Assembly: GCA_945872065.1 (NCBI GenBank)
Contig: CAMBYH010000002.1
Span: 1-64,000 of the forward strand
Source of the DNA: Arsukibacterium tuosuense
GTDB lineage: Bacteria > Pseudomonadota > Gammaproteobacteria > Steroidobacterales > GCA-2729495
Length of the DNA stretch: 64,000 nt
Direction: 5' to 3'
Part shown: piece by piece, positions 11,403 through 20,181 of the stretch
How the letters are laid out: the number at the start of each line of letters is the position of its first letter
Position numbering within the stretch: position 1 is the first letter of the stretch
Translations under genes and position numbers: made by a program
Notes under the pieces: generated by a model
Seen by the model: only the letters and a program-made list of their open reading frames with translations
Databases searched by the model: none
What the model was told of the DNA's origin: nothing

Positions 11403-12362
11403 TCAGCTTTCCCTGAAACTGCCGAAGGATCTCAGGCGGACGGCCCGCCGGCGCACGAGTTCATTCACGTCGAGGGACTCCAGGTCCCGCAGATGACTGA
11501 CGAGCGCTGCGCGCACGGACTCGGCGGTGCGAGCGGGATCCCGGTGAGCACCTCCGAGGGGCTCGCGAATCACTTCATCAATCAGGCCCAGTTCGCGCAG
11601 GCGGGGTGCTGTGATACCCATGGCCTCCGCCGCCGTCTCAGCCTTGTCGGCACTCTTCCACAGAATACTGGCACAGCCTTCGGGGGAGATAACGCTGTAC
11701 ACGCTGTACTCAAGCATGATCACGCGGTCACCGACGCCGATGGCAAGCGCACCGCCGGACCCGCCCTCTCCGATCACGATGCTGATAATGGGAGTCTTGA
11801 GACGCGCCATCTCAAAGAGATTCCGGGCAATGGCTTCACTCTGACCCCGCTCTTCCGCACCGATGCCCGGATAGGCGCCGGGGGTGTCGATCAAGGTCAG
11901 AACCGGCAGCCGGAACTTTTCGGCCAGCTTCAGCAAGCGGAGCGCCTTCCGGTAGCCCTCGGGCTTCGGCATGCCGTAGTTGCGACGAACCCGCTCTTTG
12001 GTGTCCCGGCCCTTCTGCTGGCCGAGGAAGACGACCGGCTTGCCATCGAGTCGCCCCAGACCGCCCACCATGGCCGGATCATCAGCAAACATGCGGTCGC
12101 CGTGCAACTCCTGGAAGTCTGGACTGATGACGGCGAGGTAGTCCAGTGTGTAGGGACGGAGCGGGTGCCTCGCCAGCTGGGCGATCTGCCATGCAGTCAG
12201 GCTTGAGAAGATGCTCCGGGTGAGAGACTCGCTCTTCGACTTAAGGCGCGCGATCTCATCGCTGATGTTGATCTCCGAATCATCACCGACGTAGCGGAGT
12301 TCGTCGATTTTCGCCTCGAGCTCTGCGATGGGTTGTTCGAAGTCGAGAAATTTCAGATCCAT
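11403..12362 (-). CDS. accA: Acetyl-CoA carboxylase carboxyltransferase subunit alpha
   Basis: Alpha subunit of the carboxyltransferase that, with AccD, makes malonyl-CoA for fatty-acid synthesis. The 319-residue product starts [19 protein letters not shown] and contains family blocks [33 protein letters not shown] and [16 protein letters not shown]. Length equals that of E. coli AccA. It begins 12 nt after the dnaE stop codon, with AAGG just upstream of ATG, continuing the operon. Confidence 0.98.
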
Positions 12363-16532: not shown

Positions 16533-17690
16533 TCAGGGATTATACGAAGCCGGAAGCAGACTCAGCACAACTTCCGCCGCACGCTCGCTCGCCTGACGCC
16601 GCAAAGCGGTTCCCAGGCCGGCAAACCGTTGCTGCAGGCGGGCCCGGTCGTCCGGCGCTCCCAGCCAGCGCTGGACTTCACCCCCGAGAGCAGCGGGCGT
16701 GACGGCGGACTGGATGAACTCCGGGACTAGGCGCTCACCGGCAAGCAGGTTGGGCAGCGCGAAATGGTCCACGCGAATCAGGCGCAAGGCCTTGAGCAGT
16801 ACATACGTGAATGGTGACAGACGATAGGCCACAACCATCGGCCGGTTGATGAGCATTCCTTCGAGGGTTGCGGTACCGGACGCCAGCAACACCACATCCG
16901 CTGCCGCCATGGCAGCGTGCGCCTGTCCATCCAGAATCCGCAGCCGTACGCCGCCCGTCGCTGCCGGGCTCCAGAGTGCAGAGAAGCGGGCCTTAAGTGC
17001 CGGCGTGGCCATGGGCACGATCACGGTGAGGTCCGGAATACGCGCGTGGAGCCACGCTGCCGTTGCCGCGAATACCGGGGACAGCCGCTCCAGCTCGCCC
17101 GCACGACTGCCCGGCAGCATGGCCACGACCGGCCCGGTGGCCGGCAGGCCCAGGGCCTTGCGGGCCAGGGCCGGGTCGGGCTCTGGCCGGATCTCGTCAG
17201 CCAGTGGATGCCCAACGAAGGTCGCGGGAACGTCGTGCTGATGTAAAAAGTCGGCTTCAAAGGGCAGCAGACACAGAACGTGGTTACAGGCTTCCCGCAG
17301 CACCCGTACGCGACCAGGACGCCAGGCCCATACGGAGGGCGAGACATAGTGCAGGGTACGCAGGCCTGTCGGCCGCAGCCGGCGCTCAACCCGCAGATTG
17401 AAGTCCGGCGCGTCGATGCCGATGTAGAGGTCCGGCAGATCGGCTCTGAGACGCCGCTCCAGGTCCCGGAGGATGCGCCGCAGCCGGGGCAGGTGGCGAA
17501 AGACCTCCGCGATGCCCATGACGGACAGTTCCTCGCTGGGCACCCACACCTTGCAGCCAGCCTCCCGCATGGCAGGCCCCGCAATGCCAAAAAACTCCAC
17601 ATCTGGACGGCGGGCATGGACCGCCCGGATGAGTCCCGCGCCGAGCCGGTCCCCCGAAATCTCGCCGGCCACGATGGCGATCCTCGGCAT
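16533..17690 (-). CDS. lpxB: Lipid-A-disaccharide synthase
   Basis: Joins UDP-2,3-diacylglucosamine and lipid X into the lipid A disaccharide at the inner membrane (GT19). The 385-residue product shows IAVIAGE-type N-terminus ([18 protein letters not shown]), [36 protein letters not shown] and [11 protein letters not shown]. Length matches the family. It is 8 bp downstream of lpxA. Confidence 0.98.
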
Positions 17691-17698
17691 TCGTTCAG

Positions 17699-18475
17699 TC
17701 AGCGAATCAGGCTGCGTTCTGACTTGTCGATAAAGTCGACGAGTATGCGGAGTTCGGGCTGCGTCTCCGCGAGCACCGCAAGCCGCTCCCGGGCCTCGGC
17801 AAGCTGCAACTGTTCGCGATAGAGGATTCGATAGGCCTCTTTGAGGTTGCGCAACTGCTCTGCAGTAAAGCCGCGACGCTTGAGGCCTTCACTATTGATA
17901 CCGTGCGGGGCCGTGGGCTGGCCGCCCACTATCACGTAGGGCGGCACATCGCGCGTCACGGCAGCAAAGCCGCCCAGAAAGCTGTGTGCCCCCAGACGGC
18001 AAAACTGATGGATGGCCGAAAAGCCGCTACAGATCACGTGATCGTCTACCCGCACGTGGCCTGCAAGGGTGGCATTGTTCGAGAAAATGACGTCATTTCC
18101 CACCACACAGTCATGCGCGATGTGGACGTAGGACATGATCCAATTATCGTTGCCAATGCGGGTGACGCCCTCGTCCTGGGCGGTACCACGATTGATCGTG
18201 CAGAACTCCCGAAAGGTATTTCGGTCGCCTATGGCCAGCTGGGTAGGCTCGCCCCGGTACTTCTTGTCCTGCGGATCCTCGCCTATGGAGGCAAACTGAA
18301 AGATCCGGTTATCCCGCCCAATAGTCGCAGGACCTTTGAGCACGGCGTGAGCACCCACTGTGCTCCCGGACCCGACGCGGACGCCGGCGCCGATCACCGC
18401 GTAAGGCCCAACAGTGACGCCAGCATCGAGCTCTGCCCCAGGGGCCACGATCGCTGTCGGGTGGATGTCACTCAC
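17699..18475 (-). CDS. lpxA: Acyl-ACP--UDP-N-acetylglucosamine O-acyltransferase
   Basis: First acyltransfer of lipid A synthesis. The 258-residue product is a left-handed beta-helix made of hexapeptide repeats (for example [18 protein letters not shown]) with the catalytic His in [14 protein letters not shown] and a C-terminal helical domain. Its ATG overlaps the stop of lpxD by 4 nt, leaving no room for fabZ, which lies between these genes in E. coli and Pseudomonas. Confidence 0.98.
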
Positions 18476-19521
18476 TGCCTGTTCGATCCCGACTTGATTG
18501 CTTCAGCAAGGCTCTTCTCCAGGGACCGCAAGCGCCGGGCCAGGTCGTCCAGTTGGCCAAAGCGTGCCATGTTGCGACGCCAGCGCTGAATATGGTCGGC
18601 CGGAGTACCACCACCGCCGTAGATACCTGCCTCACGGATTGAGCCCAGCACGCTCGTCCCGCCTCCAATGATCACGTCGTCCGCTACCGTAATGTGGCCA
18701 GCGAATCCGGCCTGACCGCCAATGGTGCACCGGGCGCCGATCGTCGTACTGCCTGAAATGCCAACCTGGGCGGCAATCACCGTGTGCTCGCCGATGCGAA
18801 CATTGTGCCCCACCTGGATCTGGTTATCGAGCTTCACGCCATCGCCGATCACGGTGTTTTCGATCGCACCGCGATCAACGGTCGTGTTGGCGCCGATCTC
18901 CACGTCGTCACCCACTTCAACGCTGCCAAGCTGCGGAACTTTGACATAGCTGCCCTCGCGTTCCCGGGCGAAACCAAAACCGTCGGACCCCAGCACCACA
19001 CCGGTATGCAGCACACACCGCAGTCCGATCCGGACATCGGGGTACACGGTGACTCCGGCCATGAGGTGCGTATCTGCCCCAACAGCCACGCGAGCCCCGA
19101 GCACGGTGCGCGGACCCAGTACGACGCGCTCGCCAAGAACGACGCCCGCACCCACCACGACGCCGGGGCCGACTTCGCAGGAGGGGGGCACAGTTGCCCC
19201 CGGACCAATGACCGCGGAAGCATGGATACCCGATAAGACGGGTGCAGCGGGGTGTAGCTCTGCGGCAATACGGGCGTAAACCACGTAGGGATCCCGGGTC
19301 ACGAGCGCCGCGACACCACAGCCGTCCGCATCGGCGGGCGCCAGAATTACGGCAGCAGCCCGGGTTGCTGCGAGCTGGCTCCGATAGCTGGAATTGGCCA
19401 GAAACGTCACGCAGCGATCATCGGCGCTGGCGAGCGTTCCAACCCGCTCGACGACGTGGCCCGGATCGCCCCGCAGCTCGCAGCCGTAGCGCACTGCCAG
19501 CAGACCCAGACTCACGCCCAT
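18472..19521 (-). CDS. lpxD: UDP-3-O-(3-hydroxyacyl)glucosamine N-acyltransferase
   Basis: Third step of lipid A synthesis. The 349-residue product has an N-terminal uridine-binding domain (to about residue 100, [11 protein letters not shown]) and a long left-handed beta-helix, with the catalytic His region [22 protein letters not shown]-like and a C-terminal helix ([14 protein letters not shown]). Length and domain order are typical of LpxD. It lies downstream of skp and directly upstream of lpxA with a 4 nt overlap. Confidence 0.98.
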
Positions 19522-19626: not shown

Positions 19627-20181
19627 TCAGGGCTTCGCGGGGGCCTTCGGCGCGCCGTTCCGGCTCTGCAAACCCTGCAGCACCTGCGCGGTGACATCCA
19701 GCGACGGCGCAACATAGAGAGCATCCGTGAGAATGAGGTCAAAGCCGCCTTGCTTCGAAAAGCCCTCGATCTCTCGGAGCACATCGATCCGCAGCTTGCC
19801 GAGTTCCTCGTTTTTCCGGTTATTGAGGTCCTCCCTCAACTCTTCCACCTGCCGAGCCAACTCCCGCTCGTCTCTGCGGAGGTCATTCTCGGCATTGCGG
19901 CGCTCGTCCGCTCCCATGACCGCACCGTCCTTCTGGAACTTGTCCGCCCGGTCCTTGAATGACTTCTGTTTGGCGAGGAGGTCTCTCTGGCGGGGTGCGA
20001 ACTCGTTCTCAAGGGCCCGGTTGGCCGCGTTCGCCTGGGGTGACTCAATGAGCAGTCGCTGCACGTTAACGTAACCAATCTTCAGTGCCTTGGCTGTCTG
20101 GGCCTGCGCGATCGACGGCAGGACCAGCATCACCGATGCCAGGATGACAACCAACTGACCAAGTCTCTTTACGTGCAACAT
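19627..20181 (-). CDS. skp: OmpH/Skp family periplasmic chaperone
   Basis: Periplasmic chaperone that holds unfolded outer-membrane proteins. The 184-residue product has a signal peptide (MLHVKRLGQLVVILASVML..., cleavage after AQA near residue 28), a short beta strand KIGYVNVQRLL, long charged coiled-coil arms rich in K, R, E and D (about 50-140) and a return strand FDLILTDALYV. It sits between bamA and lpxD as in the conserved order. Confidence 0.95.
   Translation of the reverse strand: MLHVKRLGQLVVILASVMLVLPSIAQAQTAKALKIGYVNVQRLLIESPQANAANRALENEFAPRQRDLLAKQKSFKDRADKFQKDGAVMGADERRNAENDLRRDERELARQVEELREDLNNRKNEELGKLRIDVLREIEGFSKQGGFDLILTDALYVAPSLDVTAQVLQGLQSRNGAPKAPAKP

Follow-up and report, generated by a model that had tools for sequence, protein, structure and literature searches.

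Loss of FabZ across a family of uncultured Gammaproteobacteria, and a candidate MaoC-type dehydratase that may have taken its place

Introduction

What becomes of fatty acid synthesis in a gammaproteobacterium whose lpxD and lpxA genes overlap, with no fabZ between them? The question matters for lipid A as well, because LpxD and LpxA both use 3-hydroxyacyl-ACP as substrate. According to one study of Pseudomonas aeruginosa (PMC12152623), fabZ and lpxA lie in one operon, the two enzymes compete for 3-hydroxyacyl-ACP, and fabA cannot replace fabZ; the same study reports that disruption of fabZ suppresses lpxA or lpxC mutant defects in E. coli and Klebsiella, and that the converse suppression failed in P. 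aeruginosa.

Materials and methods

The window, the whole stretch of 64,000 nucleotides that was analyzed, lies on contig C2 of genome G000 (2.71 Mb in 130 contigs, rated 100% complete). The order-level survey covered 79 genomes including G000, 40 of them in its own family (f1) and the rest in 15 further families; three f1 genomes (G010, G012, G017) are single contigs. The class sample comprised 370 evenly drawn Gammaproteobacteria, each at least 90% complete. Dehydratases were sought with PF07977 and TIGR01750 (FabA/FabZ) and with PF01575 (MaoC). Calls of FabZ or FabA by family rest on NCBIfam checks of the five FabA proteins of f7 and f14 and of three FabZ proteins elsewhere, and on the PF07977 score for the remainder. 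Junctions were compared among 80 LpxA relatives from named genomes, and an LpxA+LpxD tree of 77 tips was built.

Results

The lpxD-lpxA junction

The features of the window on which the argument draws are as follows:

11403..12362, minus strand: accA, acetyl-CoA carboxylase carboxyltransferase alpha (TIGR00513, 508.8 bits, cut-off 319.3)
16533..17690, minus strand: lpxB, lipid-A-disaccharide synthase (TIGR00215, 351.3 bits, cut-off 190.25)
17699..18475, minus strand: lpxA, acyl-ACP--UDP-GlcNAc O-acyltransferase, GTG start (NF003657, 375.7 bits, cut-off 226)
18472..18475, minus strand: GTGA overlap of lpxD stop and lpxA start, the position of fabZ in 64 of 80 related loci
18472..19521, minus strand: lpxD, UDP-3-O-(3-hydroxyacyl)glucosamine N-acyltransferase (TIGR01853, 346.8 bits, cut-off 242.5)
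19627..20181, minus strand: Skp/OmpH-like periplasmic chaperone, upstream of lpxD (NF008047, E 3.9e-18, 66 bits, under the cut-off of 237)

The order of the lpx genes is that of the familiar lpxD-fabZ-lpxA-lpxB cluster, but this genome is without fabZ both here and elsewhere. The four shared nucleotides (18472-18475) read tcac on the plus strand and GTGA on the coding strand, so that the TGA stop of lpxD and the GTG start of lpxA have bases in common and leave no space for fabZ. The overlap, and the lack of fabZ within it, had been pointed out in a preliminary description of this DNA and are borne out here, with both flanking proteins over their equivalog cut-offs.

A fabZ-like frame was present upstream of lpxA in 64 of the 80 relatives (LpxD was not detected in four of these loci) and missing in 16. 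The closest LpxA record, from a Lake Baikal metagenome bin, is 97% identical. The window and 15 of the 16 fabZ-less loci formed one clade of 16 tips (support 0.998), adjoined by six loci, of which four bear the label Woeseiaceae and five carry fabZ. The sixth, L071 (the named MAG 21_Jan_SF_Bin68), has a fabZ-less junction with a 4-nt overlap among these mostly Woeseiaceae, fabZ-bearing loci, and is probably a separate, independent loss. Counting the window, 12 of 17 fabZ-less junctions share the 4-nt overlap (the window, ten found by script and L043 by eye); the other five have 0 nt (two loci), +5, +14 and, in L046, no start found by script. An assembly error, which the preliminary description would have inferred had fabZ stood between lpxD and lpxA in every related lineage, is ruled out by the fabZ-less junctions of these 16 relatives together with the same absence across the f1 genomes.

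Extent of the absence of FabZ

Neither PF07977 nor TIGR01750 matched anything in G000, while each found a match in 9 of the 14 genomes used as controls, among them E. coli. The genome-wide search for fabZ and fabA that had been recommended thus extends the absence past the junction. A relocated fabZ is rejected on this ground. FabA, also a 3-hydroxyacyl-ACP dehydratase, was not found in G000 either, PF07977 being a profile that finds both proteins, and the idea that it covers for FabZ there is rejected on this result.

The same holds for the family. No PF07977 match was found in 37 of the 40 f1 genomes, the matches in the remaining three (G007, G012, G013) were weak or orphan, and none of the 40 had a match at the level of FabZ. 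The best, at 67 bits, is an orphan FabZ-like protein in G012 (L219:2725-3195), which adjoins a ketosynthase-like ORF and reaches 103 bits on TIGR01750 against a cut-off of 155. The match in G013 and one of two in G007 are ApeP-like; the other in G007 is L220. Gaps are not the cause of the absence in G010, G012 and G017, each of which is a single contig.

Among the 15 sister families, 11 (f2-f6, f9-f12, f15, f16) have FabZ, in 28 of their 29 genomes, G057 (f5) being without a match. FabA without FabZ occurs in f7 (3/3 genomes) and f14 (2/3), all five FabA proteins being confirmed by NCBIfam. By PF07977, neither protein was found in f13 (0/3), in one f14 genome or in the single f8 genome, which is 82% complete. 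Across the class, TIGR01750 matched 362 of 370 genomes, 352 over its cut-off; the eight that it did not match comprise two genomes of f1 (G000, G015), three of f31 (0.3-0.4 Mb in size), G095, G245 and G386. In G045 (f7) and G247 the matches score no higher than FabA does. Genome G386 is rated 100% complete. FabZ has been lost across f1, a family of uncultured environmental bacteria, and the finding is larger than was first stated.

Remaining genes of fatty acid synthesis

FabF, FabG, FabH and AccA of G000 pass their models, and an acpP gene flanked by fabG and fabF was recognized by eye. A FabI-like reductase (L145) is fitted best by the FabI models, at 394 bits, yet falls under all of their strict cut-offs. 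With all of these present, a dehydratase is still needed. To judge from its accA, G000 supplies its fatty acid synthesis with malonyl-CoA.

This genome does not keep the usual fab cluster in one piece, as loci L121 (G000:C1:12000-31999) and L215 (G000:C4) show: fabG, acpP and fabF lie together, no fabD was recognized by eye upstream of fabG, and fabH is on another contig by a transporter-like gene. Elsewhere, L119 and L124 (G000:C17) hold very long frames that resemble a polyketide/peptide synthesis cluster, and several of these frames match ketosynthases.

A candidate dehydratase and its distribution

G000 has three MaoC proteins by PF01575, two of them short and single-domain, here called group-1 and group-2. 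The second is the candidate:

L032:1164-1631 (G000 contig C61, outside the window), minus strand: group-2, single-domain MaoC-type hot-dog protein, 155 aa (PF01575, 68.4 bits, cut-off 27)

The third (L033), of 277 aa and encoded next to a ferredoxin-like gene, was rejected as a candidate: in G014, G015, G022 and G027 the PF01575 matches number just two per genome, one being group-1 and the other group-2.

Orthologues of group-2 (E <= 8.6e-48) were found in 40/40 f1 genomes and in 9/9 genomes of f7, f13 and f14, that is, in all 49 genomes of the FabZ-less families; outside these families no match is better than E 7.5e-39. Genome G011, which is 92% complete, yields group-2 as the sole protein found by either PF01575 or PF07977. 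Counted by family, group-2 is present in 4/4 FabZ-less and 0/11 FabZ-bearing families (Fisher p 0.0007, a test that ignores kinship and is weak evidence alone); f8 was excluded because it has neither FabZ nor group-2. A group-2 profile was run across the class sample, scoring the best 10 or fewer candidates per genome. G000, G015 and G045, all of which contributed orthologues to its training alignment, score at least 253 bits, followed by two genomes of FabZ-bearing f136 at 216 and 206 bits. No match at this level was found in the other FabZ-lacking genomes of that sample, namely the three of f31, G095, G245, G386 and G247, so loss of FabZ is not always paired with group-2. Within the order survey, FabZ and group-2 are both missing from G046 and G057.

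The 20 group-2 sequences are monophyletic (20/20, support 0.954). In G000 the neighbors, identified by eye, are folE, mobA and moaC, with no fatty acid synthesis genes adjoining; elsewhere in f1, and in f14, tesB lies close by as well (again by eye; MoaC, FolE and TesB are Pfam-confirmed in L142 only), and f7 and f13 keep parts of the neighborhood, among the genes listed. This synteny favors one origin for group-2, so its gain and the loss of FabZ may have been a single event.

Sequence of the candidate

The D-x4-H motif is the catalytic pair of MaoC dehydratases, and in group-2 it appears as D42 and H47, invariant in all 20 sequences and aligned with the DHQWIH of Rv0130. That Mycobacterium tuberculosis protein, presumably HtdZ, is the nearest solved relative (PDB 2c2i; E 4.7e-51, profile positions 3-151 of 154). 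It shares with group-2 full-length homology and the aligned motif, but is placed outside the group-2 clade, and its segment 108-126 has a net charge of 0 as against +5 to +7 in group-2 (n=20). The same segment carries -1 to +2 in group-1 (n=9) and 0 to +5 in 24 other sequences, among which L206 repeats the gene already counted in group-1 as L188; 3 of 34 non-group-2 sequences reach the group-2 minimum. The region was picked after inspection, and among all 19-residue windows 105-123 shows the largest difference and 108-126 the second largest. Acidic ACP often binds basic patches. Taken together with the charge of this segment, that preference leads us to infer ACP binding by group-2, and the segment is a suggestive pointer, no firmer than that, to 3-hydroxyacyl-ACP activity.

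As a precedent, a title cited in PMC2765072 gives HtdX, HtdY, HadABC and HtdZ as 3-hydroxyacyl-thioester dehydratases that work in yeast. The HadA model NF040624 matches group-2 weakly (E 1e-4; 22.6 bits, under the cut-off of 180).

Discussion

The preliminary description had offered relocation or replacement by another dehydratase as explanations of the missing fabZ. Relocation falls with the lack of any PF07977 or TIGR01750 match in G000 and of any FabZ-level match in f1; replacement is the best supported explanation, and a candidate can now be named. We judge it rather probable, on the sequence comparisons above, that fabZ was lost and its job displaced to the unlinked group-2 MaoC-type dehydratase. 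The steps would be as follows: fabZ dropped out of lpxD-fabZ-lpxA, leaving lpxD and lpxA overlapping; dehydration of (3R)-hydroxyacyl-ACP in each round of elongation was taken over by group-2, a protein of the Rv0130/NodN kind that would act as a hot-dog dimer using Asp42 and His47; the enoyl product would be reduced by the FabI-like enzyme; and LpxA and LpxD would draw on the same 3-hydroxyacyl-ACP pool. We infer in this way the ACP substrate, the dimer and its mechanism, the essentiality of group-2 and any effect on lipid A balance.

The strongest competing account is that another hot-dog protein or an unrelated dehydratase does the work of FabZ, group-2 being a clade-specific (R)-enoyl-CoA hydratase or nodN-like enzyme. 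The hot-dog profiles searched were PF07977, TIGR01750 and PF01575 only; the MaoC proteins closest by profile, in FabZ-bearing f136 and f174, lie by eye near acyl-CoA dehydrogenase-like genes, i.e. in a setting of CoA metabolism; and the tesB near group-2 in other f1 genomes fits this account too. We nevertheless find it doubtful, since no PF01575 protein but group-2 is retained by every genome of the FabZ-less families, and in G011 it has no PF01575 companion.

Group-1 (L031:822-1289), by a crotonase-like gene, could be proposed as the replacement instead, for it is present in 35 of 40 f1 genomes and retains the D-x4-H motif; it is, however, missing in the f1 genomes G001, G011 (92% complete), G018, G025 and G026 and in f7 and f13, and it occurs in FabZ-bearing f2, f3 and G049 (one of three f11 genomes), which makes the proposal highly improbable. 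The gene that follows group-1 is enoyl-CoA hydratase/isomerase-like (L031:55-1394; L130:2971-4236, Pfam-checked in L130). With this neighbor, group-1 might provide genomes without FabA with a way to make unsaturated fatty acids.

Least credible of all is that FabZ is present after all, either too diverged for the profiles, whose search applied a first-look filter ahead of scoring, or hidden by a gap in the 130-contig assembly, given that the absence recurs over 40 f1 genomes, three of them single-contig, that TIGR01750 is sensitive enough to match nearly all of the class sample (362/370), and that the lpxD-lpxA junction itself is contiguous.

We return to replacement by group-2. In mycobacterial FAS-II, the heteromers HadAB and HadBC are MaoC-like dehydratases that stand where other bacteria have FabZ. 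They serve mycolic acid elongation beside FAS-I (PMC3245277 and PMC7005898), whereas in the present case a single protein would cover general synthesis, and would do so in a bacterium that makes lipid A. No report of a MaoC protein taking the place of FabZ in a Gram-negative bacterium was found in searches of the open-licence literature, where a missing fabZ, searched for as a phrase, led to papers on Nocardia and on mycolic acids only. If FabA of P. aeruginosa is no substitute for FabZ, as PMC12152623 has it, then FabA is unlikely to stand in for FabZ in f7 and f14, and these FabA-only families also need another dehydratase.

A wider reading, to which we give an even chance, is that a clade of Gram-negative, lipid A-making Gammaproteobacteria runs general FAS II on an Rv0130-like MaoC protein with an evolved, ACP-binding basic patch. 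In four families this protein would have supplanted FabZ, so taking the enzyme at the lipid A/phospholipid branch point out of the lpx cluster; unsaturated fatty acids in f1 and f13, which are also without FabA, would then be made by a further route, e.g. a desaturase or group-1 MaoC with its neighboring crotonase. That the change in fabZ alters the balance between lipid A and fatty acids, as the preliminary description suggested, is plausible.

By implication, FabZ inhibitors would not act on such bacteria, and their fatty acid synthesis will be annotated as incomplete. A clade with a swapped dehydratase is also a natural experiment, in which it can be asked whether linkage of fabZ to the lpx genes is needed and whether control of LpxC is different.
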